A stretch of 64,000 nt of DNA from Rhodobacter viridis (GTDB lineage Bacteria > Pseudomonadota > Alphaproteobacteria > Rhodobacterales > Rhodobacteraceae): positions 124,001-188,000 of the forward strand of contig NZ_QJTK01000004.1 in assembly GCF_003217355.1 (NCBI RefSeq), read 5' to 3'. A program made the position numbers and the translations under genes. Below are positions 17,594 to 31,361 of the stretch, in pieces (within the stretch, counting starts at the first letter, position 1; the number at the start of each line of letters is the position of its first letter). The notes below the pieces were generated by a model. That model did not search any database, had not been told where the DNA came from, and saw only the letters and a list, made by a program, of their open reading frames with translations.

Positions 17594-19960
17594 TCAGGCG
17601 CTGCGCCGCGACACGAAGAGCGCCTTGCCGGGGTCTTCGGCGGCGGGCGTGTAACGGGGGCGCATCTCCTCCCCTTTCAACCGGAACGCCGCAACCGACT
17701 CGGCCAATGCGGTGGCCTCGCCCTGCAGCGAGCGCACCGCAGCATTGGTTTCCTCGAACACGGCGGCGTTTTGTTGCGTCGTGCGGTCGAGTTCGGTCGT
17801 GGCATTCGAAATCTCGCCGATCCCGGTCGCGGTTTCCTGCGAGGCGGTGACGATCTCGGAGATCTTCTGCGCCACATCCTCGACCCCGGCCACGATCTCG
17901 CGCAGCGCCTGACCGGAATCATGCACAAGCCCGACCCCATGATTGACGTTGTTCGAGGCCGTTTCGATCAGCCGGGCGATTTCGCGCGCGGCCTCGGAAG
18001 ACCGCTGCGCAAGCGCCCGCACCTCCGAGGCGACGACGGCAAAGCCCCGTCCTGCATCGCCCGCCCGCGCGGCTTCAACCCCGGCGTTCAGCGCCAGCAG
18101 GTTGGTCTGGAAGGCGATGTCATCGATCACCTGGAGGATTCGCCCGATCGCCTCGGACGAGGTCTTGATCTCGTCCATGGCCGACACCGCACGGGTCACG
18201 ACTTCGTGGCCCTTGCCAGCCCGGTTCGAAATCGCCGTCACGGCGCTGCGGGCCGTCTGCGCCGAGTTCGCGGCAGACCGCACGGTGGCCGACATCTGCT
18301 CGAGCGCCGAAGCGGTTTGTTCCAGCATCGCGGCGTTGCGTTCCGAGCGACGGGCAAGATCGTCGGCCGCCCCCGCGATTTCGCGGGCTGAAGTGTCGAC
18401 GGCCGTGGCCGATATCGAGATGTCGGTCAGCGTGCCGGTCAGGCTCTCGGTGGTGCGGTTCATCGTTTCGGCGATCTCGGCAAAGATGCCGTGGAATCGG
18501 GTCGGCATCCGATGCGTCAGATCGCGCTCGGCCAGGCGCTCAAGTGCGACACGCACCGCTGTCAGCCCATCATCCGCGGCCTCGCCGATCCGGTTCATGC
18601 CGGCGCAAAGATCGGCGAACACCCCGGTCTTGTCGTCGGTGCGCAGCCGGCGCGAGAAATCACCTTCGGCGCAAGCGGCCACCACTTCAGCGATTTCCTG
18701 CGCGGCGGCATGCTCGCGTGCCTGAGCGGCGGCGGCGGCGGCGCGTTCCTCCTCGGCTTTGCGGGCGCGGTCGGCCATTTCGGCCCGTTCCTGAGCGGCG
18801 GCGGCGGCGCGGGCCTGGTCTTCGCGTTCGGCCGCAGCCGCGCTTTCGACTTCGAGCCGCTGGCGTTCCAGAATCGTCGCGCGGAAGCTTTCCAGCGCCG
18901 CAGAGATCGAGCGCACCTCGCTGACCCGGGCGTTCGGAACGCTGATATCCGTCCGACCTTCGGCCAGTTCCTGCACCGCGGTCGTCACGTCGCGCAGCGG
19001 CATCACCGTCGCCCGGAACAGTCGCACCGCCGAGAAGGCGAGCACCAGCATCCCGATCACGCCAGCAACTCCCATCAGCATGTAGCCGCGGGCCTTTTCG
19101 GTATCGGCCTTCGCCTGCAACTGCGCGACGTCGCTGCCAAAATGCGCGCGCAAGGCATCGAGCGCTTTCGGCATCGTGTCATAGCTTTCGTCGCAAGCGC
19201 GGGTCGTATCGCCGATCTGCAGGGCAAGATCGGCGTATTGATGGAAGGCTTCCTGATATTCGGTCAGCTTCGCGAGGGTCCGATCCCGGTGCTGCTGAGA
19301 CAGGAACATCGTGTCGGGATAGGTGCTGAAGGTCGCGATTTCCTTGTCGAGTTCGTCGATATATTTCGGGTCGAGACGCATGATGAAGTCTTTTTCGTGC
19401 CGCCGCATCTTCAGCAGCGTGATTTCGACCTTCGGCACGGCGATCGATCCGATCATCTTTTCCGCGGCGTGAACCGCGGTGCGCAGCTGTCCCTCGAGAC
19501 CCGATTCCGCATCGAGGCCAAGCACCCGGCGCGTGTCCGCGTAAAGCGCGAAATTCTCCTCATAGGTGTCCAGCAGGTCCTGCATCGCTGCGGCCTGAGT
19601 CGCGCTGGCGGTCAGCCCCAGCGCACTGGTTTCGGTCACCAGGTCCTTGAGCTCGGCCGAGGCCCGGGCGATCTTCTTCGCATGATCTTCGATCTGCGCC
19701 TCTTCGCGCGAGATGCGGAATTTCGCTTCGAGGTCGCGCGCCGAGGCAAGTGTGCGCTCGAGCGTGGCCAGATCGGCGTTCAATTCCGCGATCGAGACGC
19801 TTTGGCGTTCGGCGGCCCTGTCGATCAGGGCCGAATAGAAGATGGTCGCAAAGACCGCCAACGTGCAGATGACGATGACGAGGCCCATGCGGACGAGGTA
19901 GGAAAGGAAGCTGCGGGACGTGCCTGCGCGTGCCATGCGGTTGCTCCGAAAGTTCGCCAT
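17594..19960 (-). CDS. Methyl-accepting chemotaxis protein
   Basis: A 788-residue transmembrane chemoreceptor. Membrane helix 1 lies near residues 20-42. A mainly helical periplasmic domain with no recognisable Cache fold follows, then helix 2 near residue 300 ([16 protein letters not shown]). After that come a HAMP domain, an Ala/Glu/Arg coiled coil, and a second HAMP-like segment ([16 protein letters not shown]). The signalling hairpin has the invariant core [20 protein letters not shown] and EVRALAQRS. The C-terminus lacks a CheR-docking pentapeptide. AGGGGAT precedes the start. The ligand is unknown. It lies beside a second receptor of the same orientation and about 3 kb before the hydrogenase cluster. 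Confidence 0.92.
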
Positions 19961-20061
19961 CGCAAAATCCCCTAAAGGAATTAAGGGCAGGTGAAGCTGC
20001 GCCAAGATTGGTCAACTTGTTGCTTTTGTCGCAGCTTTTCCGTCACGCGATCCCCGAAAAG

Positions 20062-20124: not shown

Positions 20125-22062
20125 TCAACAGGCGATCTGGTGCTCCCAGGAATTGCCAGACACATGGGTGCCGATGCGGAAGACGGCACTGAATTCCTTC
20201 AGAGTGCGCGCCTCGTGCAAGAGCCCCTGCGTCGCGGCCGAATTCTCTTCGAACATCGCGGCGTTGTGCTGGGTCACCTGATCGAGTTGGTTCACCGCGG
20301 CCGTCACCTCGGCAATGCCCGAGGATTGCTCGGCGGCGGCATTTGCGATCCCGTCCAGCAACGTGTCGAGTTCGGTGACCAGCGCTTCGATTTCGCCCAG
20401 GGCGGTGTCGGACCGCGCCGCCAGATCGACCCCGGCCGCGACCTGCCGCGACGAGGTGTCGATCAGCGCCGCAATCTCGCGCGCGGCTTCCGAGGAGCGT
20501 TGCGCCAGCGCCCGCACCTCCGAGGCCACGACGGCAAAGCCGCGCCCGGTCTCGCCCGCGCGCGCGGCTTCGACCCCGGCGTTCAGCGCCAGGAGGTTGG
20601 TCTGGAAGGCGATGTCATCGATCACATGGGTGATGCGCGAAATCTTGTCCGAGCTTTGCGCGATGTCGTCCATGGCGCGTTGCGTCTGGCGTACGACCTC
20701 CCGCCCGGTGGCGGTGGTGGAGCGCGTGCGGTTCACCGCCTGCGCGGCCGACCGCGCCCCTTCGACCGATTGCGCGACCGAGGCTGCCATCTCGTTCATC
20801 GCCGCGGCCGTTTCCTCCAACGAGGCTGCCTGAGTCTCGGTGCGCCGCCCGAGTTCCATCGAGGCCGTGCCGAGCTGCCCGGCTTCGGTTTCGACCACAT
20901 CGGTTGTCTGCACGATCGAGCTGATCAGCCCCGCGACCTTGTCGATGGCGGCGTTGAAATCATTGCGCAATCCCTCGTAAGCGGGGGGGAAGGTCTCGGT
21001 GATCCGCGCTGTCAGATCGCCCGCCGACAGCGCCTGCAGACCCTGCGCCAGAGCGGTGACGACATTCAGTTGCTCGCGCATCTGTGCCTCCCGCTCGGCC
21101 TCGGTCCGCTGCCGCTCGGCCTCGCGTTCGGCCTGACGGGCGGCTTCGGCGCGTTGCAGTTCCGCCTCGGCCTCCTGTTCGCGCTGCCGCAGGGCTTCCT
21201 CGCGCTCGCGCGCCTGCAGCTCGGCTCGGGCCATCTCGGCCTCCTGCGCACGCCGCTGCCGCGCCAGTTCCGCCTTTTCCGCCAACGAGGCCCGGAATAC
21301 TTCAAGCGCCCGCGCCATCTCGCCCACCTCGCCGCGGACCGTGGTGCAGGGCACCGCCGTTTCGGTATCCCCCTCGGTCATCTTGCGCATCCGGTCATGC
21401 ACCGCCCCGAACGGGCCGGTGACCGAACGTGCCAGCGCTGTTGCTGCGCCGCCCAGCGCCAGCAGGCCAACGAGCATCGAGATCAGCGAAACCTGACGCA
21501 GGCCGGACAGCGCCGCGGCGATGTCGGCAACATAGGAGCCGGTGCCGACGATCCAGCCCCAGGGGGCGAAATCGCGCACGAAGCCGATCTTTTCCTCGGG
21601 CGTGTCGCTGTCGGGCTTCTTGAAATGATATTGGATTTCGCCACTGCCCGCGGTCTTGGCGATGTCGAGCATCTCGACGAAGATCTTCTTGCCGTAGGGA
21701 TCGGTGTAGCCCAGTTGCGACTGCCCGACCCAGGCCGGCATCGTCGGATGCGCCTGGATCACGCCTTCATGATCCAGGACGAAGAAATAGCCCGCCTTGT
21801 CGAAGCGCAGCGCCGTCAGACGGCGCGCGCCTTCCGCTTTGGCCTCGGCGGCGGTGAGTTTGCCCGTCTGTACCTGCGTTTCGAGGTCGGCCAGCACGCC
21901 AATGGCGGTGTCGACCACGTCACTCAGATGTTGCTCCCTCATGTCATAAGCGTTTTTGACCGCAAAGTGCAGCAGGGTTTCGGACAGGATGACGAGCGCG
22001 ATCGCGGCTATGGCCACGATCGCATAGATGCGAGCGGATATACCGAAGAATTTGTTTTTCAT
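20125..22062 (-). CDS. Methyl-accepting chemotaxis protein with a single Cache domain
   Basis: A 645-residue chemoreceptor. Membrane helix 1 is at about residues 8-30. The periplasmic sensor is of sCache_2 type ([30 protein letters not shown]), the class that often binds small carboxylates. Helix 2 and HAMP follow, then a Gln/Glu/Arg/Ala coiled coil, then the conserved hairpin [20 protein letters not shown]. The tail ends NSWEHQIAC, which vaguely recalls a CheR-docking NWETF but lacks the last aromatic residue. Met 22062 starts immediately before the first helix. It has its own terminator and so is not co-transcribed with the receptor gene ending at 17594. Confidence 0.93.
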
Positions 22063-23107
22063 GGGCCTTGGAGACTGGGAAGGTGGAGGTGCCTGGCCAG
22101 AGAACGGTACGAGCAAAACTTGGAAACAGGGCCGGAGTGGAGCCTCAGTCTTGCAAGCATCCGTCAAGATTCCCTTACAGATCTGGAGTTGTTTCAGGTT
22201 GACTTAACGTCGCAAACACAATGTCGCAGGTCGCTTTCCGTTTCCGGGCGGCAAGGTTGTGCGCTGAGTCCCCTGTCGGGAGCCGGTATGAGGAGGAAGA
22301 ACGAGGGCGACTCTCCCCAGAAAGCGGCCGATGGCAAGTAGGTTTCCAATTTTCCATTTTGGTGAGAGATTTGGCGTTGGTGTGGGTTTTTGCGGGCGCC
22401 CGACGTGTTGCGCAAATGCGCGGCGACACCCGTTCAAACCGCTTCGATGCAGGCAAAAATCAACCTTTAGGTGAGATTTGTATGCGCAATTTCCACCCAA
22501 AACGGGGCCGATCCGGTCGTAAATTTGGCGATGATCCTACGGATGGCGGCTTCGGGTGGGTTTTCTGCTCGGTTTTGTGCTGTGATGCGCCGGAAATGAA
22601 GCGCGCTTGCCGCGCGTGATCGGCCGTCTTTCCCGACTTGTCCCGGAATCAAGGTTCTTCGCCGCACGTGCGGGGCGAATTTCGGAAATAATGGTCAGTA
22701 ATTTTTACTTATCGCGCATCGAGGTCCTCGGGGTCGCGAAACCGTCCGTTCTGAGTGGGTGAAAAGCTTTTTACCAACCAAGGCAAAACGTTTGACCCTC
22801 CCGCCGGTTGGGCGCAATTTTGACCCATCCCAAGGGAAGGGTGGAGGATGGAGAGGTTCGGGCCGCTTTAGGATCGCAGGTCTTGGAACATGGATACGGG
22901 GTCGGGTCGGACCAAAGGCCCCCGATGACATGGCGTCGGTGCCGGAACAGAACCGCATCAGACCACAAGAATTGCGGCGATTGTGCTCGACCTCTCCATG
23001 ACCCTCGACCGGACGTTGGCGCCACTTGTTACCTTGCCACGTGCCCCTCCGGTCCTTTCCCTTCGATCCGCGGTTTCACCGCCCGTTCTCTGCCGTTGAG
23101 TGCCCTG
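22063..23107. other. Gene-free kilobase upstream of the orphan hydrogenase gene
   Basis: About 1,045 bases with no reading frame that looks coding on either strand. It is visibly richer in A and T than its neighbours. It holds a hairpin TTCGCC-GCACGTGC-GG-GGCGAA (22658-22679), a short dyad AGTAA-TTT-TTACT (22697-22709), two related GGTGAGA...TTTG motifs (near 22360 and 22470), and two GCGCAATTT..ACCCA motifs (near 22484 and 22811). It must contain the promoters of the minus-strand receptor gene and of the HoxH-like gene. No HupR-type TTG-N5-CAA site was found. It could also hide a small RNA or a decayed gene. Confidence 0.6.
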
Positions 23108-24607
23108 ATGCTTGCCCTCGAGACGACCCCAGTTCCCCGGTTTCCGGCCCGGATGCTTTCCGAGCCGGTCGCGCTTTCCGAGGATGCGGGGCACGAAGGC
23201 CGTGGCAAGGTGACGATCCAGCTTGATTCGCGGGGACAGGTGCATCACGTCGATCTGCAGATCCTCGCCCTGCGCGGCTTCGAGGAATTCATTGAAGGCC
23301 GCCCCTGTGACGAGGTGCCCGAGGCGGTGCAGCGGCTCTGCGGCACTTGCCCGGTCAGTCATCATCTGGCGGCGGTCAAGGCGATGGACCGGATCGCGGG
23401 TTACGACCGGCTCACCCCCACGGCGGAAAAGCTGCGCCGGCTGATGCATTTCGGCCAGTTCGTGCAAAGCCATGCCGTGCATCTGTATCATCTGACCGAG
23501 CCCGACCTGCTTCTGGGTTTCGACAGCGAGACCAATCGGCGCGGCCTTGTCGATGTGGCGCGCAGCTTTCCGCAACTCGCCACCGAAGGCGTGCTGATGC
23601 GCCGCTTCGGGCAGGAGGTGGTCCGCGCCGTCATGGGCCCTCGTCTTGCGGGGGCGGGAGCGGTTCCGGGCGGCATGCGCCGGGCGCTGAGCCGCGAAAG
23701 CCGTGATCTTCTGCGCGCCGATGTCGATCAGGTGATCGACTGGGCGGTGGGCGCGCTGCGCGTGCTCGAACGTCTGCACGACACCAATCCGGCCTTCTAC
23801 GATCATTTCGGCGAAGTCGGCGGCAACATGATCGGCCTTGTCGGCCGGGGTGGGGCGCTGGATTTCTACACCGGTCGGCTGCGGGCCCGCGATGCGCTGG
23901 GCGTGACGCTCTTCGACGGTGTTGCCCCCGCGGCCTATCGCGGTGTTCTGGCCGAAGAGCCCGGCCCGGGCGGTCCGCATATTCGCGCGCTTGGCCCCGA
24001 GGCGGGCTGGTATCGCGTCGGCCCGCTGGCCCGTTTGCAGGTCTGCGACCTTCTGACCTCCGAGAAGGCCGAGACCGAACGGCAGCGGCTTCTCGCCGTC
24101 GGTGGCGGGAAGCCGTTGCATGGAACGCTGTTCTATCACGGGGCGCGGCTGGTCGAGCTGCTGCATGCGGCCGAGCTGATCCGGGATCTTCTCGACGATC
24201 CCGAGCTGCTGGGGCACGATCTGATGGCTGATCGCGGGGCACCCCAGCGCGAGGCGATCGGCGTGATCGAAGCCCCGCGCGGCACGTTGTTCCACCGCTA
24301 CGAGGTCGACGACGACGCCCGCGTGCGCCGCTGCGAGTTGATCATCTCGACCGCCAACAACACCCAGGCGATGAACGCGGCGGTCCGCAAGGTCGCGGCA
24401 GAGTATTTCGACGGCAGCGAGATCACCGAGGGGCTCTTGGGTCATATCGAGGTCGCGATCCGGGCCTATGACCCTTGTCTGGCCTGCGCCACCCATGCGC
24501 TGGGGCAGATGCCGCTTTCGGTCGAATTGATCGACGCCGCGGGCGCGGTTGTCTCGGGCCTGCGCCGGGGCGCCGACGGGGGGGTGTCATGCTGCGTTCC
24601 ATCCTAG
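23108..24607 (+). CDS. Orphan HoxH-type (group 3) [NiFe]-hydrogenase large subunit
   Basis: A 499-residue catalytic-subunit homologue. The first Cys pair is in RLCGTCPVSHHLAAVKAMD, and LMHFGQFVQSHAVHLYHL and GAGAVPGGM follow; all are typical of the bidirectional NAD-linked HoxH branch rather than of HupL. The C-terminal ligand motif is YDPCLACATHALGQMP, followed by a 36-residue tail after the His that a protease would remove. The N-terminal PVTRIEGH motif is degenerate: PVALSEDAGHEGRGKV keeps the Glu but loses the Arg. No small subunit (HoxY) or diaphorase (HoxFU) gene is adjacent. ATG 23108 was chosen; the frame is open upstream. Its 3' end overlaps the protease gene by 19 bases. The electron partner is unknown; a remnant of a lost enzyme is possible, but the frame is intact. 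Confidence 0.85.
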   Translation: MLALETTPVPRFPARMLSEPVALSEDAGHEGRGKVTIQLDSRGQVHHVDLQILALRGFEEFIEGRPCDEVPEAVQRLCGTCPVSHHLAAVKAMDRIAGYDRLTPTAEKLRRLMHFGQFVQSHAVHLYHLTEPDLLLGFDSETNRRGLVDVARSFPQLATEGVLMRRFGQEVVRAVMGPRLAGAGAVPGGMRRALSRESRDLLRADVDQVIDWAVGALRVLERLHDTNPAFYDHFGEVGGNMIGLVGRGGALDFYTGRLRARDALGVTLFDGVAPAAYRGVLAEEPGPGGPHIRALGPEAGWYRVGPLARLQVCDLLTSEKAETERQRLLAVGGGKPLHGTLFYHGARLVELLHAAELIRDLLDDPELLGHDLMADRGAPQREAIGVIEAPRGTLFHRYEVDDDARVRRCELIISTANNTQAMNAAVRKVAAEYFDGSEITEGLLGHIEVAIRAYDPCLACATHALGQMPLSVELIDAAGAVVSGLRRGADGGVSCCVPS

Positions 24608-25137
24608 GTCCGCGTCTGGTCGTCTTTGCCTGGGGCAATGAAAGCCGCGGCGATGACGGGCTTGGCCCGCGGCTGGCGGCAAGGATCGCGACGGCGGGCT
24701 GGCAACACATCACGCTGATCGAGGATGTGCAGCTGCAGGTCGAACATGCGCTCGATCTCGTCGGGCAGGACATGGCGCTGTTCATCGATGCGGGGATGGG
24801 CACGCCCGCGCCCTTTGCCTTCGTGCAGACCGCGCCGCGCCGCCACCTTGGGCATTCGACGAGCCACGGCATCGGCCCCGAAGGCGTGCTTGAGGCCTTC
24901 CGGCAGGTCATGCATGACGAGCCGCCGCCCGCTTTCGTGCTGTGCCTGCGTGGCGAAAGCTTCGCGCTGGAGGAAGGCCTGAGCGAGACCGCCCGGGAAA
25001 ATCTGGCGAAGGCCTGGGGCTTTCTGATCCCGCTGCTGTCCTGGCCGGGGCTCGATCGCTGGCAGGCGGCCGAGACCGGCCCGCTCGAGGATCTTTCGCC
25101 CCTGCACGAGAACCGCCGTCGCCCGGCGGCCGAGTAA
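24589..25137 (+). CDS. Hydrogenase maturation protease, HoxW-like
   Basis: A 182-residue member of the HyaD/HycI/HoxW endopeptidase family, which clips the C-terminal tail of nickel-loaded large subunits. The signature VFAWGNESRGDDGLGP is at the N-terminus. Later carboxylate and His residues (LFIDAGMG, LGHSTSHGIGPEGVL) can form the nickel-sensing site. It starts inside the 3' end of the HoxH-like gene, so the two are translationally coupled; the natural inference is that it processes that protein's tail. It is distinct from hupD, the protease of the uptake hydrogenase. Confidence 0.85.
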   Translation: MLRSILGPRLVVFAWGNESRGDDGLGPRLAARIATAGWQHITLIEDVQLQVEHALDLVGQDMALFIDAGMGTPAPFAFVQTAPRRHLGHSTSHGIGPEGVLEAFRQVMHDEPPPAFVLCLRGESFALEEGLSETARENLAKAWGFLIPLLSWPGLDRWQAAETGPLEDLSPLHENRRRPAAE

Positions 25138-25228
25138 GCCCCCCGTTTCAGCGCGGTCTGCCGGGGCCAGCCCCTTGCGCGGGGCTCTTGGCCCGATATG
25201 CTGAGCCCGACCCCACCGGAGCTGCATC

Positions 25229-26599
25229 ATGCCCCGACCGCCCGTCAAGGACAGTCCGCCCCGTTTCGACCCGGCCAATCTGGGCGGCCTCCTGCCCGGC
25301 ATGGAGGCCAGCGATGCCGTCTGGGTCGATGTGCTCTCGGCCGTCGACCGCACCTATGCCGAACTTGTCGATTATCAGGAGCGGCTTGAGCGGCAGAACC
25401 ACGAACTCGAGGATCTGCGGTCGTATCTCGGTTCGATCTTCGCCTCGGTCTCGGATGCGCTGATCGTCGCCTCGCGCACGGGGGAGGTGCTGGGCACCTC
25501 GGCCTCGGTCGAGGCGCTGACCGGTGCGCGGTCCGAGGTCTGGCAGGGGCGGCCCCTCTCGGCGATGTTCGACCCGGCCTCTGGCGCGCGGCTCGAACGC
25601 ACGATGGCCGAGGCCGCAAACCGCCGCGCCCCCGTGACGGTCGAGGCGGCGCTGCTGGGTCCGCGCGGGCCCGCACCGCTTGAACTTTCGGTCAGCCCGC
25701 GGCTCGATGAGCGCGACCGCATCATCGGCTATGTGCTGACCGGCCGCCCCTTGGGCGAATTGCGGCAGGCCTATTCGGAACTGGAACGCTCGCATGCCGC
25801 GCTGATCGCGGCGCAGGCGCAGCTGGTGCGCAATGAAAAGCTTGCCTCGCTTGGCCGTTTGCTGGCGGGGGTGGCGCATGAACTGAACAACCCGATTTCC
25901 TTCGTCTATGCCAATGCCCATGCGATGGAGCGCTATGCCGCGAAATTCGAGACCTATTTCGCCGCGGTGCAGGCGGGCGTCCCGCGCGAGGAACTGGTGG
26001 CCCTGCGCGAAACTCTGAAACTCGAACGCGAAGTCGGCAATCTGCGTATCGCCATCAATGGCGCCCGCGACGGCGCCGAACGTGTCCGCGCCATCGTCGA
26101 GGATCTGCGCCGGCTCTCGTCGGAGGGCACCGGCGAGCAGGTCGTCTTCGATCTGGTGGCGACGGCGGGGGTGGCGGCCGATTGGGTGCGGCGCGGCTCG
26201 AAGACGGCGGTGGCGGTCGAGTTCACCGGCCTGCCGAAGCTCGACGTGATCGGGCGGCCCGGCCATATCCAGCAGGTGGTGATGAATCTGGTGCAAAATG
26301 CCATCGATGCGATGGGCGATTTTCAGGACGGCCGCATCCGCATCGAAGCGCGGATCGCGGGCGACCGCGGCGAGCTCGTCGTCTCCGATACCGGGCCGGG
26401 CGTGCCCGAGGACGTGGCCGCGACGATCTTCGATCCGTTCTTCACCACCAAGGACGTCGGCAAGGGCACCGGGCTTGGTCTCTCGATCAGTCACAAGATC
26501 GTCGAGGAACACGGCGGGCGGCTCAGGCTTTTGCCCGAAAACCCCCTTGGCGGCGCCTGTTTCTGCTTCGATCTGGCGCTGGCGGGGGAACCGCAATGA
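25229..26599 (+). CDS. hupT: Hydrogen-signalling histidine kinase HupT
   Basis: A 456-residue soluble kinase. A short coiled coil precedes a PAS domain (about residues 65-170). The H-box [13 protein letters not shown] contains His217 (codon 25877), the phosphorylated residue. A HATPase domain follows with N box ([12 protein letters not shown]), G1 (SDTGPG) and G2 (GKGTGLGLS). No membrane helix is present. HupT phosphorylates HupR in the absence of H2 and is controlled by the HupUV sensor (established for R. capsulatus). Its stop overlaps the hupU start (ATGA 26596-26599), giving one hupTUV unit. Confidence 0.97.
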
Positions 26600-27594
26600 A
26601 GGTTCTGTGGTTGCAGGCCTCGGGCTGCGGCGGCTGCACGATGTCGGCGCTTTGCGCCGAGGCGCCCGATCTGATCGACACGCTTGCTGCAGCGGGCGTC
26701 GAATTCCTCTGGCATCCGGCGCTGAGCCTTGCCTCGGGGGGCGAGGTGACGCGGCTCCTGCAGGCGCTTGAGGCCGGAGAGATTGCGCTTGATTGTCTGG
26801 CGGTCGAGGGCGCGATTGCCCGCGGGCCGATGGGCACCGGGCGGTTTCAGATGCTCTCGGGCACCGGGCGCTCGATGCTCGACTGGGTGCGGGCGCTCGC
26901 GCCGAAGGCCGCGCATGTGGTGGCGGTCGGGTCCTGTGCGGCCTATGGCGGCGTGACCTCGGCCGGGGGGAACCCCTCCGATGCGGTGGGGCTGCAGTAT
27001 GACGGCGCGCATCCGGGCGGGGTGCTGGCCGCGGGCTTCCGGGGCGGGCTCGGCCTTCCCGTCGTCAATGTCGCGGGCTGTCCGACCCATCCGGGCTGGG
27101 TGACCGAGACGCTGATGCTGCTCGCCAAGGCGCGGCTGACCGAGGCCGATCTCGACAGTCTCGGGCGGCCGCTCTTTTACGCGCAGCATCTTGTGCATCA
27201 TGGCTGCCCGCGCAACGAATTCTATGAATACAAGGCCTCGGCGCTGCAGCTCTCGGATCTGGGCTGCATGATGGAGCACCTGGGCTGTGTTGGCACGCAA
27301 GCCGTGGGGGATTGCAACATCCGGCCGTGGAACGGCGAGGGCTCCTGCACCCGCGGCGGCTATCCCTGCATCGCCTGCACCGCGCCCGAGTTCGAGGAAC
27401 CGCGCCACCCCTTCACCGAAACGCCAAAAGTGGCGGGCATTCCGGTGGGTCTGCCCGCCGACATGCCGAAGGCCTGGTTCATGGCGCTGGCGTCGCTCTC
27501 GAAAGCCGCGACGCCCGAGCGGATCGCGAAGAACGCGGTGGCCCCGCGCGTGGCCGTGACGCCGACGATCCGCAAGCCCGGAGGTCGGCGATGA
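26596..27594 (+). CDS. hupU: H2-sensor hydrogenase small subunit HupU
   Basis: A 332-residue iron-sulfur subunit of the regulatory hydrogenase. It begins directly with the first cluster motif, WLQASGCGGCTMSALC, and has no Tat signal, in contrast to HupS. This fits a soluble cytoplasmic sensor. Further cluster ligands are in VGSCAAYGG, VAGCPTHPGW, HHGCPRNEFYEY and the C-terminal Cys-rich segment GDCNIRPWNGEGSCTRGGYPCIAC. It forms the H2-responsive complex with HupV, which signals to HupT. It overlaps both neighbours by 4 bases, so sensor subunits and kinase are made together. Confidence 0.96.
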   Translation: MKVLWLQASGCGGCTMSALCAEAPDLIDTLAAAGVEFLWHPALSLASGGEVTRLLQALEAGEIALDCLAVEGAIARGPMGTGRFQMLSGTGRSMLDWVRALAPKAAHVVAVGSCAAYGGVTSAGGNPSDAVGLQYDGAHPGGVLAAGFRGGLGLPVVNVAGCPTHPGWVTETLMLLAKARLTEADLDSLGRPLFYAQHLVHHGCPRNEFYEYKASALQLSDLGCMMEHLGCVGTQAVGDCNIRPWNGEGSCTRGGYPCIACTAPEFEEPRHPFTETPKVAGIPVGLPADMPKAWFMALASLSKAATPERIAKNAVAPRVAVTPTIRKPGGRR

Positions 27595-29021
27595 GCGACA
27601 CGCCGCGTCTGGTCGTCGGCCCCTTCAACCGGGTCGAGGGCGATCTGGAGGTGCATCTCGACATCTCCGAGGGGCGCGTCGCCGCGGCCCGGGTCAATGC
27701 GCCGCTCTATCGCGGTTTCGAGCGCATGCTGGAGGGGCGGGCCCCTGGTGACGCGCTGACGCTGACGCCGCGGATCTGCGGCATCTGCTCGATCTCGCAA
27801 TCGGCGGCCGCGGCGCGGGCGCTGGGCGCGGCGATGGGGCTGGTGCCGACCGATCAGGGCGCGATGCTTGCGGCGCTCATTCATGCGGTCGAGAATGTCT
27901 CGGACCATCTGGTGCATTTCAACCTGTTCTTCATGCCCGATTTCACCCGGCCCTGTTACGCCGCCCGGCCGTGGTATCCGCGCGCCGTCGCGCGGTTCGC
28001 CGCGATCGAGGGACAGGCGGCCCGGGCCGCCATCGCGGCGCGGGCTGGGCTGATGCACATCCTTGGCCTTGTCGCCGGGAAATGGCCGCATACGCTGGCG
28101 CTGCAGCCGGGCGGCGTCACCCGCACGCCCGGCGCGCGCGACGTGCTGCGCATTCAGACCGAGCTGCGGATGTTCCGCAAGCATCTGGAAACGCAGGTCT
28201 TTGGCGGCCCGCTTGAAGACTTCGCTGCGCTCGACAGCCGGTCGGCGCTGATGCGCTGGGATCGCGGCGATGCGGGGCTTTTCCTTGAAATCGCGGCCGA
28301 TCTGGACCTTGACGCGCTGGGCCGTGGCGCCGGGCGCTATCTGAGTTTCGGCGCCTATCCGCTGGCCGAGGGGCATGGCTTCGCCCCCGGCCTCTGGCAG
28401 GCGGGCGAGGTCACGGCGCCGAACATGGCGGCGATTGCCGAGGATCTGAGCCATTCCTGGATGCTGGGCGGCATGGCCCATCCCTTCGACGGCGTGACCC
28501 GCCCCGACGAGACGATGCGCGAGGGCGCCTACAGCTGGTGCAAGGCGCCGCGGCTGGAGGGCGCGCCGGTCGAGGTGGGGGCGCTGGCGCGGCAGCTGAT
28601 CGACGGCCATCCTCTGGCGGTGCAGTTGGCGGGCGGTGGCGTGCTGGCGCGGGTCGCCGGGCGGCTTCTGGAACTCGCGCGGACACAGATCCTGATGGAG
28701 GCCTGGGCCGAGGCGCTTGACCCGGGCGCGGTCTTCATGCGTCAGGGCAACCTGCCCGAGACGGGCGAGGGCGCGGGGCTGGTTGAGGCCGCGCGCGGCA
28801 GTCTGGGGCATTGGCTGCGGATCGAAGGCGGCAAGATCGCGTCTTACCAGATCATCGCGCCGACGACCTGGAACTTTTCCCCGCGCGATGCTCAGGGGGT
28901 GCCGGGGCCTCTGGAAGCGGCGCTGGTTGGGGCTCCGGTCGAGCCGGGCGAAGATAGCCCGGTTTCGGTGCAGCATATCGTGCGCAGTTTCGATCCCTGC
29001 ATGGTGTGCACCGTGCATTGA
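27591..29021 (+). CDS. hupV: H2-sensor hydrogenase large subunit HupV
   Basis: A 476-residue [NiFe] subunit. The N-terminal motif is GPFNRVEGDLEV. The first Cys pair is RICGICSISQSAA, with Gln where catalytic hydrogenases have His, a hallmark of regulatory hydrogenases. The protein ends exactly at FDPCMVCTVH with no C-terminal tail, so no protease is needed for its maturation. Both traits are established for H2 sensors. It starts at ATG 27591, overlapping hupU by 4 bases. A set of hairpins separates it from hypF. Confidence 0.96.
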   Translation: MSDTPRLVVGPFNRVEGDLEVHLDISEGRVAAARVNAPLYRGFERMLEGRAPGDALTLTPRICGICSISQSAAAARALGAAMGLVPTDQGAMLAALIHAVENVSDHLVHFNLFFMPDFTRPCYAARPWYPRAVARFAAIEGQAARAAIAARAGLMHILGLVAGKWPHTLALQPGGVTRTPGARDVLRIQTELRMFRKHLETQVFGGPLEDFAALDSRSALMRWDRGDAGLFLEIAADLDLDALGRGAGRYLSFGAYPLAEGHGFAPGLWQAGEVTAPNMAAIAEDLSHSWMLGGMAHPFDGVTRPDETMREGAYSWCKAPRLEGAPVEVGALARQLIDGHPLAVQLAGGGVLARVAGRLLELARTQILMEAWAEALDPGAVFMRQGNLPETGEGAGLVEAARGSLGHWLRIEGGKIASYQIIAPTTWNFSPRDAQGVPGPLEAALVGAPVEPGEDSPVSVQHIVRSFDPCMVCTVH

Positions 29022-29141: not shown

Positions 29142-31361
29142 ATGCAGGGTTGGCAGATCAGGGTGCGCGGGCAGGTGCAAGGGGTGGGGTTCCGGCCCTT
29201 CGTCTGGCAATTGGCGCGGGCGCGCGGGTTGCGCGGAGTGGTGCTGAACGACGCCGAGGGAGTGCTGGTGCGGGTCGTGGGGGCGCTTGGTGATTTCGCC
29301 GAGGCCTTGCGGGATCAGGCGCCGCCCTTGGCGCGGGTTGATGCGGTCGAGGTGGCCGCAGTTGTTCTTGACGACCTGCCCGAGGGGTTCGAGATCGTCG
29401 CCTCGGGTGGGGCAGGGGCCGAGACGCGGGTGACGCCCGATGCCGCGACCTGTCCGGCCTGTCTGGCCGAGATCCGGGGCGAGGGGCGGCGGCGCGGCTA
29501 TGCCTTCAGCAACTGCACCCATTGCGGGCCGCGCTTCACCATCCTGCAAAGCCTGCCCTATGACCGTGCCCGCACGACGATGGCCCCCTTTGTGATGTGC
29601 CCGGCCTGTCGCGCGGAATACGGCGATCCGGCGGACCGGCGCTTTCATGCGCAGCCCATTGCCTGCCCCGACTGCGGGCCGCGGCTGTGGCTCGAGGCCG
29701 GGGGCGTCGAAGTCGCGGGGGATGCCATCGCCGCGGCGGCTAAGCGGCTGAAGGCAGGGGAAATCCTTGCGGTGAAAGGGCTCGGCGGCTTTCATCTGGC
29801 CTGCGATGCCGCCAATGCCGGGACGGTCGATCTATTGCGCGCGCGCAAACGCCGCCCCGCAAAACCCTTTGCGCTGATGGCCCGCGAAGGCGATCTGGAG
29901 CGGATCGTGTCCGTCAGCCCGGGCGCCTTGGCCGCTTTGCGTGACCCGGCCGCGCCGATTGTCCTCATGCCGTCGCGGGGCGTGCTGCCCGAAACCGTCG
30001 CCCCCGGCGTGGCCGAGCTGGGCGTGATGCTGCCCTATACGCCGCTGCATCATCTGCTGCTCGATGCCTTTGGCGGCGTGCTGGTGATGACCTCCGGCAA
30101 CCTGTCGGGCGCGCCGCAGGTGATCGGCAATGACGAAGCGCGCGACAAGCTTTCCGCCTTTGCCGACGCCTTTCTGATGCATGACCGCGAGATTGCCCGG
30201 CGGCTGGATGACTCGGTCGTTCGGGTCGATCCGCCGATGGTGTTGCGCCGCGCCCGTGGGCAGGTGCCGGGTACGCTGCCGCTGCCGCCGGGGTTCGAGA
30301 CCGCGCCGCAGGTCGTCGCTTACGGTGGGCAGATGAAGGCCGCGCTGTGCCTGATCAAGAACGGGCAGGCGCTGCTCGGCCATCACCTTGGCGAGCTGGA
30401 CGAAGCCCTGACCTGGGAGGCGTTCCAGCAGGCCGATGCCGATTATGCGGGCCTTTTCGACCATCATCCGCAGGCGGTGGCCATCGATCTGCACCCCGAT
30501 TTCCGCGCCAGCCGTCACGGCGCCAAACGGGCCGAGGCGCTTGGCGTGCCGATGATCGCCGTGCAGCATCACCACGCCCATATGGCCGCCTGTCTGGGCG
30601 AGAACCTTTGGCCGAAGGACGGCGGCAAGGTGGCGGCGATCGTGCTCGACGGGCTCGGGCTTGGGCCCGATGGCACGGTCTGGGGCGGCGAGCTGCTTCT
30701 GGGCGATTACACCGGCTTCGAGCGCATCGCCTGGCTCAAGCCCGCGGCGCTGATCGGCGGGGATCGCGCGCAGCTGGAGCCTTGGCGCAATGCGCTGGTG
30801 CGGCTCGATGCGGCGGGGCTCTCCGATCTTGCGGATCGGCTTTTCCCGGAGGCCCCGCGCGATCTGGCGCGGCAGATGGCCATGAAGGGGATCAACGCGC
30901 CGCTGTCCTCCAGCGCGGGGCGACTTTTCGATGCGATCGCCGCCTGTCTGGGGATCTGTCCGATGCGCCAAAGCTACGAGGGCGAGGCGGCGATGCGGTT
31001 GGAATCACTTGCTTCCGAGACCGGACCCGGCCCCGATCTGCCCGTCGTCGCGGGCGAGATCGACCCCGCGCCGCTGTTTCAACTTCTGGCGGCAAACGAG
31101 CCCCCCGCGCGCATCGCCCATGCGCTGCATGCAAGCCTTGCGCGCGCGTTTGCGACGCAGGCGGCGCAGCTGATCGAGAGCGGTCGGGCTCAGGCGGTGG
31201 TGCTGTCGGGGGGCTGTTTCCAGAATGCGAAACTTGCAACCTTGACGCGAAAAATGCTGGCGGGGCAAAGGATTCTGACGCACCGCAGCATTCCCGCCAA
31301 CGACGGAGGGCTGGCACTGGGTCAAGCGCTCGTCGCAGCGGCGAAATTGGAAGGAAATTGA
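29142..31361 (+). CDS. hypF: Hydrogenase maturation carbamoyltransferase HypF
   Basis: A 739-residue protein that turns carbamoyl phosphate into the thiocarbamate on HypE, the precursor of the cyanide ligands of the active site. Domains in order: acylphosphatase (GQVQGVGFRPFVW, residues 1-90); two zinc fingers (CPACLAEI..CTHCGPR and CPACRAEY..CPDCGPR, about 100-185); YrdC-like nucleotide-binding domain (about 195-380); and a Kae1-like carbamoyltransferase domain with VQHHHAHMAACLGE and VLSGGCFQN. It lies between hupV and hupS and is needed for both the sensor HupUV and HupSL in R. capsulatus. ATG 29142 follows the hairpin set. Confidence 0.97.
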   Translation: MQGWQIRVRGQVQGVGFRPFVWQLARARGLRGVVLNDAEGVLVRVVGALGDFAEALRDQAPPLARVDAVEVAAVVLDDLPEGFEIVASGGAGAETRVTPDAATCPACLAEIRGEGRRRGYAFSNCTHCGPRFTILQSLPYDRARTTMAPFVMCPACRAEYGDPADRRFHAQPIACPDCGPRLWLEAGGVEVAGDAIAAAAKRLKAGEILAVKGLGGFHLACDAANAGTVDLLRARKRRPAKPFALMAREGDLERIVSVSPGALAALRDPAAPIVLMPSRGVLPETVAPGVAELGVMLPYTPLHHLLLDAFGGVLVMTSGNLSGAPQVIGNDEARDKLSAFADAFLMHDREIARRLDDSVVRVDPPMVLRRARGQVPGTLPLPPGFETAPQVVAYGGQMKAALCLIKNGQALLGHHLGELDEALTWEAFQQADADYAGLFDHHPQAVAIDLHPDFRASRHGAKRAEALGVPMIAVQHHHAHMAACLGENLWPKDGGKVAAIVLDGLGLGPDGTVWGGELLLGDYTGFERIAWLKPAALIGGDRAQLEPWRNALVRLDAAGLSDLADRLFPEAPRDLARQMAMKGINAPLSSSAGRLFDAIAACLGICPMRQSYEGEAAMRLESLASETGPGPDLPVVAGEIDPAPLFQLLAANEPPARIAHALHASLARAFATQAAQLIESGRAQAVVLSGGCFQNAKLATLTRKMLAGQRILTHRSIPANDGGLALGQALVAAAKLEGN

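Follow-up and report, generated by a model that had tools for sequence, protein, structure and literature searches.

An orphan HoxH-type [NiFe] large subunit kept under purifying selection after loss of hoxFUY in Rhodobacter

Introduction

Large subunits of [NiFe] hydrogenases have descendants that serve another use, the NuoD-like proteins, which have lost the metal ligands and kept their small-subunit partner. What a large subunit can do by itself has been approached with laboratory preparations. Isolated HoxC and HoxG of C. necator are reported to carry a redox-active NiFe(CN)2(CO) site and to activate H2 slightly, whereas isolated HyhL of T. kodakarensis was obtained only without cofactor (PMC9886862). 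Among solved structures, the nearest relative of the protein described here is the group 3d HoxH of 5XF9/5XFA.

Here we describe a hoxH gene of Rhodobacter viridis within the window, i.e. the whole stretch of 64,000 nucleotides that was analysed. Its product shares the Cys motifs and EAPRG with HoxH of 5XF9/5XFA, but neither a HoxY nor an extra HoxF was found in the genome and the RVEGHG motif is broken. Like the C. necator preparations, which derive from complete hydrogenases, it is a [NiFe] large subunit without a small subunit, but here the partner gene has gone in nature. Like the NuoD-like proteins it may be a large subunit turned to another use; unlike them, it keeps the ligands and has lost the partner. 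If true, a [NiFe] large subunit under selection after loss of its small subunit would be a natural test of the NiFe site alone, a question that, in the literature searched, was met only with subunits isolated in the laboratory.

The arrangement is shared with R. capsulatus, a genetically tractable model for the regulation of [NiFe] hydrogenases. Two regulon papers name the hoxH of R. capsulatus a NAD-reducing hydrogenase (PMC9603517, PMC5359404). Given that no HoxY and no extra HoxF was found in the R. capsulatus genome G297, the label does not fit; it designates an enzyme whose parts the genome lacks. A literature search, which covered its sources in part, found no mention of the missing hoxFUY in R. 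capsulatus.

Results

hoxH occupies 23108-24607 of the plus strand as an intact frame encoding 499 amino acids. The frame stays open upstream as far as a TTG at 22808; the Met at 23108 coincides with the alignment start of the three R. capsulatus-type HoxH proteins. The product matches PF00374, and its homology to HoxH of 5XF9, the closest solved relative, is near-full-length (443 bits over residues 7-463). Both CxxC motifs that supply the Ni-Fe ligands are present, L1 as RLCGTCPVSHH (residues 76-86; 23333-23365, plus strand) and L2 as DPCLACATH (residues 455-463; 24470-24496, plus strand), so that the initial annotation was right in describing an intact frame with both Cys motifs. The protein extends beyond DPCxxCxxH by a C-terminal peptide (residues 464-499; 24497-24604, plus strand) and a maturation protease gene, hoxW, adjoins it. 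Because the 5XF9 HoxH chain ends at the same His, cleavage is expected after H463, and the peptide would be removed by HoxW. The family feature that is missing is the L0 motif RVEGHG, whose Glu aligns with Glu32 of 5XF9 HoxH. Judged by its sequence, the product is HoxH, an intact group 3d [NiFe] large subunit. Assignment to group 3c was considered, as VhuA is the best NCBIfam match, and rejected because the score of 299.5 lies far under the cut-off of 800 and HoxH of 5XF9 is the closer solved relative. An AlphaFold2 model of HoxH built from a 6-row alignment is weak (mean pLDDT 62.1, pTM 0.64).

The gene order in the window is hoxH, hoxW, hupT, hupU, hupV, hypF, all on the plus strand, which bears out the earlier description of a protease gene and hupTUV next to hoxH. 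hoxW (24589-25137, 182 amino acids) shares 19 nt with the end of hoxH. TIGR00072 (58.3 bits, cut-off 47.45) identifies its product as a hydrogenase maturation protease, for which there was no Pfam match at E<=0.001. After a gap of 91 bp follow hupT (25229-26599), a PAS histidine kinase by domain search, hupU (26596-27594; PF01058 and PF14720) and hupV (27591-29021), the products of the latter two being presumably the small and large subunits of an H2 sensor, and then hypF (29142-31361; TIGR00143). HupV ends in CTVH without a C-terminal extension; HoxH, with its extension and protease gene, differs from HupUV-type H2 sensors, and the successor of HupU in the gene order is HupV, not HoxH. On the other side, 940 bp (22168-23107) lie between hoxH and a minus-strand chemoreceptor gene (20125-22167), which is preceded by a second one (17594-20005, minus strand); one of the two carries an sCache_2 domain, and by eye similar chemoreceptor proteins are encoded at the corresponding place of the R. 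capsulatus-type genomes. In R. aestuarii the interval corresponding to 22168-23107 holds hoxY, preceded by hoxF and hoxU. Here it is free of remnants: comparison of 21901-23250 with HoxF, HoxU and HoxY gave 18.9, 17.3 and 16.9 bits, all within the range of 20 shuffles (17.3-24.3, 15.4-20.8 and 15.0-19.6, respectively). An Rfam scan of the window gave no match.

The whole assembly (3.87 Mb, 55 contigs, 99.98% complete) was then searched for partners. PF01058 occurs at three places, in a NuoB-like protein of 184 amino acids on contig C1, in HupU and in HupS, and no PF01058 protein beyond these was found, so that the search gave no HoxY small subunit. PF00374 occurs at five places in three genes, namely HoxH, HupV and HupL. 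PF01512, which covers HoxF, NuoF and kin, occurs at three places. Of the other six Rhodobacter genomes with hoxH, five, none of which has hoxF, give the same number; the sixth, R. aestuarii, gives four, among them its hoxF. By this count no extra hoxF was found in the genome. HoxU was not found in the stretch upstream of hoxH, where it was searched. The initial annotation had noted that HoxH lacked HoxY and HoxFU, and the genome-wide counts of PF01058 and PF01512 agree with it; no complete hoxFUYH set turned up elsewhere. Its suggestion of a partner encoded elsewhere found no support, as the PF01058 search yielded no further protein, and its other suggestion, that hoxH was only recently orphaned, is wrong for the window species, since the loss is common to the three R. 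capsulatus-type genomes and has left no hoxFUY debris.

The pairing of hoxH with a small-subunit gene is the rule elsewhere. In a family sample of 295 genomes, 11 besides our own have HoxH (49-51% identity) and all 11 have an adjoining PF01058 gene. In a phylum sample of 398 genomes there are matches in 33 others, of which 31 have a PF01058 gene within ~1 kb on the same contig (read from coordinates by eye); 6 of the 33 are weaker (E 1e-116 to 1e-65) and may be other group 3 subunits. The two exceptions are G869, where hoxH starts 314 bases from the contig end, and G809, a partial match on a contig with no PF01058 hit. The phylum sample stands in for a class sample in which 2 of 385 genomes, our own included, matched at E<=1e-60, too few to tally. 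Within the genus, hoxH is present in 7 of 18 genomes at 62-100% identity: the window genome, three R. capsulatus-type genomes (G296, G297 and G298), R. aestuarii (G295), Rhodobacter sp. TJ_12 (G308) and R. maris (G303). G297 is consistent with R. capsulatus SB1003, judging from where a published 15-base RegA motif lies in it, whereas G298 is termed R. capsulatus-type on sequence only. Of the remaining 11 genomes, 7 have weak partial matches only and 4 have none. The hoxHW-hupTUV arrangement is found in 7 of the 18; orphan hoxHW is not peculiar to one strain, nor did it arise by a recent accident. Six Rhodobacter loci carry hupTUV without adjoining hoxHW (in two of them the view is limited to 1.2-1.5 kb upstream of hupT), and HupTUV therefore does not need hoxHW.

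Several stages of the loss can be seen among these genomes. R. aestuarii has hoxF, hoxU, hoxY, hoxH and hoxW directly before hupTUV. Its hoxHW is orthologous to that of the window, with HoxH and HoxW each 70% identical and the same 19-nt overlap, but all five hox genes are present, L0 is intact, and a CbiM-type gene stands where the window has chemoreceptors. In TJ_12 (locus L093, 7910-8686 as oriented) a 258-codon open frame, in which pieces of HoxF, HoxU and HoxY have been fused by deletions, precedes intact hoxHW; the debris scores 52 (HoxF), 55 (HoxU) and 96 (HoxY) bits vs shuffle maxima of 20-24. R. maris retains a HoxY scrap of 51 residues (37.7 bits vs a shuffle maximum of 24.6). The upstream stretch of G298, like that of the window, gave hoxF, hoxU and hoxY scores within the shuffles. 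The scores of SB1003 slightly exceed those of its 20 shuffles for HoxF (25.4 vs 21.6) and HoxU (22.3 vs 21.2), as does that of G296 for HoxU (20.4 vs 19.2); these small excesses may be chance or faint traces. The hox genes of R. aestuarii, TJ_12 and R. maris (L092, L093, L094) have upstream of them a gene for a CbiM-type metal transporter, at the place that chemoreceptor genes take in the window and the R. capsulatus-type genomes; a NikR-type regulator gene lies near it in TJ_12 and R. maris, the two loci checked for this. In another genus of the family (G231, L081) hoxFUYHW likewise lies directly upstream of hupTUV, and the hox-hupTUV linkage is thus wider than Rhodobacter.

In the HupTUV tree TJ_12 and R. 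aestuarii are sisters (support 100). Because R. aestuarii is complete, the loss of hoxFUY in TJ_12 must be separate from that in the R. capsulatus clade. R. maris is placed with R. aestuarii and TJ_12 by HupTUV (support 98) and HoxW (support 83), and the CbiM-type gene is common to these three. In the tree of the HoxH protein, however, it joins the R. capsulatus clade, and its grouping with R. aestuarii and TJ_12 is rejected by an AU test on HoxH (p 0.014). The HoxH placement could come from the long branches of fast-evolving orphans; a loss common to R. maris and the R. capsulatus clade is possible. A count of three independent losses was therefore softened, and the trees suggest that hoxFUY was lost two or three times, with hoxHW spared each time, in a count that is based on hoxH searches and leaves lineages that lost everything uncounted. 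As two separate losses hold on either tree, the probabilities that we assign to the readings discussed below are unchanged. R. maris also keeps hoxHW and hupTUV together though its HupL gene is on another contig, and it has no hypF within 4 kb after hupV.

To describe what the orphans have kept, we used the 166 alignment columns that show 97% or more invariance among 38 control rows of HoxH proteins from hox operons; these rows include G242 twice (L079 and L127) and the contig-end case G869 (L123), in which no HoxY is visible. In the five hoxY-less orphans (window, three R. capsulatus-type and R. maris) 107 of the 166 columns are kept throughout, among them R76, C78, C81, H85, E388-G392 (EAPRG), C457, C460 and H463; A464, G466, M468, P469 and L470 are also kept in all five. 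The changed columns number 30 in the window, 44, 41 and 42 in the R. capsulatus-type proteins and 33 in R. maris, compared with 8 in TJ_12. Controls left out in turn show a median of 1 change, R. aestuarii having 6 of 170 and the outlier L128 17 of 172. In the window, L0 (codons 28-33; 23189-23206, plus strand) aligns as GHEGRG in place of RVEGHG, with the Glu (E30) kept and the Arg, Val and His changed. It reads ETAGQG in SB1003, EREGQG in G296 and G298 and PLGDQG in R. maris, so that SB1003 has Ala and R. maris has Gly at the Glu position. The motif is intact in R. aestuarii, in TJ_12 and in the 11 family HoxH proteins, and broken in the five hoxY-less orphans. L0 is located at the small-subunit face and on the proton path, and its Glu has roles in proton transfer and at nickel; the broken motif argues against ordinary H2 turnover. 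Compared with related HoxH proteins, the WSYMKFP loop is four residues shorter in the HoxH of the window and of the three R. capsulatus-type genomes, i.e. in four of the five hoxY-less orphans.

Since hoxH is an orphan in the window and in the R. capsulatus-type genomes alike, divergence within this orphan clade postdates the loss. Pairwise codon likelihood gave omega values of 0.17-0.26 for hoxH in all six pairs of the clade, with omega=1 rejected in each (2dlnL 37-158); the hoxH dS between the window and the three R. capsulatus-type genomes is ~0.9-1.1 by YN00, a method used for close pairs only. The same six pairs gave 0.06-0.12 for hoxW (0.11-0.12 for the window vs the three R. capsulatus-type genomes), 0.06-0.10 for hupT, 0.04-0.08 for hupU, 0.06-0.10 for hupV and 0.09-0.15 for hypF, and hoxH of R. 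aestuarii vs TJ_12 gave 0.08. Constraint on hoxH is thus relaxed two- to threefold relative to the R. aestuarii/TJ_12 pair, yet clear. By the cruder NG86 ratio, 100-codon stretches of hoxH span 0.12-0.57 for three orphan pairs and 0.05-0.21 for R. aestuarii/TJ_12; in orphan hoxH the ratio peaks at the N terminus and is raised elsewhere too. Branch lengths follow the same trend: the HoxH stem of the R. capsulatus trio is 0.23 vs 0.03 in HupTUV and the HoxH branch of R. maris 0.57 vs 0.16, while the HoxH branches of R. aestuarii and TJ_12 are not long. The initial annotation had asked whether related strains carry disabled copies; none of the six genomes without complete hoxFUY, our own included, has an internal stop in hoxH. 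Neutral simulation gave a mean of 1.9 stops per lineage and left 14% of runs stop-free, few stops being expected because the genome is GC-rich. This simulation is weak, and the case for selection therefore rests on the codon likelihood.

Evidence on regulation comes from R. capsulatus. A RegA ChIP peak is reported to cover 833738-834931 of SB1003, on hoxH (PMC5359404, Table 2), and RNA-seq marks hoxH (2.96-fold, rich medium only) and hoxW (2.05-fold, minimal medium only) as repressed by RegA (PMC5359404). In G297 the motif of this peak starts at 834361, 39 bp before hoxH. FnrL and RedB act indirectly on R. capsulatus hoxH and in the opposite sense to hupT and hupU (PMC9603517). About 280 bp upstream of hoxH in the window, comparison revealed a conserved non-coding block (22781-22880, plus strand), which is a candidate control element, promoter or leader, of the window/R. 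capsulatus clade. The window and the three R. capsulatus-type genomes agree at every position of a 29-nt run within it (22825-22853, CCATCCCAAGGGAAGGGTGGAGGATGGAG), which in G297 falls inside the RegA peak of the literature. A 27-base part of the run, searched for with as many as 3 mismatches allowed, occurs once in each of these four genomes and was not found in the other three hoxH-bearing Rhodobacter genomes. The run may fold into a short hairpin, a fold judged on its own rather than against shuffles. A sigma-70 scan of 22168-25300 gave no promoter-like site.

Discussion

The possible explanations are weighed against what has been observed: the gene content, reading frames that are intact, purifying selection that persisted once hoxFUY had gone, retained Cys ligands and a retained cleavage site, a broken L0 and, from the literature, transcription and RegA/FnrL/RedB control in R. 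capsulatus. With no small subunit and no electron outlet, HoxH cannot be a NAD-reducing hydrogenase; selection on the leftover subunit and on HoxW suggests that HoxH has a job of its own. The explanation that we consider most likely, giving it about an even chance, is that HoxH, still matured, has become a NiFe protein that stands alone and serves a new role after the loss of hoxFUY. The ancestral locus would have been a complete hoxFUYHW NAD-hydrogenase operon, from which hoxF, hoxU and hoxY were probably lost before the split of the window species and R. capsulatus while hoxH and hoxW stayed. HoxH would be produced, most likely be given its NiFe cofactor by the shared Hyp machinery and be trimmed by HoxW, and would then work alone, perhaps as a homodimer, in a role presumably tied to the redox control of hydrogen metabolism. 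Since the isolated C. necator subunits are reported to hold the cofactor and HyhL was obtained without it, a stand-alone NiFe protein is plausible, not assured. A more specific form of this proposal is tentative, and we regard it as rather doubtful: HoxH of the R. capsulatus clade would be a natural one-subunit [NiFe] protein, matured by HoxW and carrying a NiFe(CN)2CO site, that acts within the RegA/FnrL circuit, either regulating in response to redox state or H2 or serving as a reservoir that sets the supply of NiFe cofactor to HupSL.

The strongest rival is slow decay, a real possibility to which we give clearly less weight than to a stand-alone protein. It holds that the NAD-hydrogenase became useless, that hoxFUY was lost, and that hoxHW is the last, eroding remains, kept by weak selection, e.g. 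against a misfolded protein that is toxic or clogs the Hyp machinery. Evolution of hoxH has indeed accelerated, as in the R. maris branch compared with HupTUV, and its omega exceeds that of the measured neighbours and of hoxH in R. aestuarii/TJ_12; L0 is broken, the four-residue loop is deleted in four of the five hoxY-less orphans, 30-44 of the 166 near-invariant positions have changed per orphan, and 11 of the 18 Rhodobacter genomes are without hoxH. Yet omega stays well under 1 in all six post-loss pairs, hoxW is even better kept, the upstream element is conserved, and hoxHW was spared in at least two separate losses. Regulation in R. capsulatus, as described in the regulon papers, is live. 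The stop-free frames of the six genomes without complete hoxFUY also speak against decay, weakly when taken alone, given the share of neutral runs that stayed stop-free.

HoxH might instead pair with HupU, or with HupS, and form a mixed hydrogenase or sensor. We consider this improbable, even though hupU lies 2 kb downstream of hoxH and R. maris, whose HupL gene sits on a different contig, still has hoxHW beside hupTUV: the L0 motif of the small-subunit face is broken in the five hoxY-less orphans, HupU already has its own partner in HupV, and hupTUV occurs without hoxHW in the six Rhodobacter loci examined. It is more unlikely still that hoxHW persists solely because its DNA serves hupTUV as a leader or promoter. 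The common order and strand and the gap of just 91 bp between hoxW and hupT would fit such a role, but selection acts on the encoded protein and, in R. capsulatus, FnrL and RedB drive hoxH and hupT/hupU oppositely. That hoxFUY is present and was missed through an assembly gap has a negligible chance, for although our own draft assembly comprises 55 contigs, hoxH sits in the interior of one that measures 248 kb, and the hoxY-less arrangement recurs in the 2-contig R. capsulatus genome (G297) and in two others.

Two relatives encode one more PF01058 protein each, beyond NuoB, HupU, HupS and HoxY or its debris: R. aestuarii at G295:C7:16771-17100 (230 amino acids) and TJ_12 at G308:C2:275632-275967 (154 amino acids). 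The protein of TJ_12 may be a partner of HoxH there.
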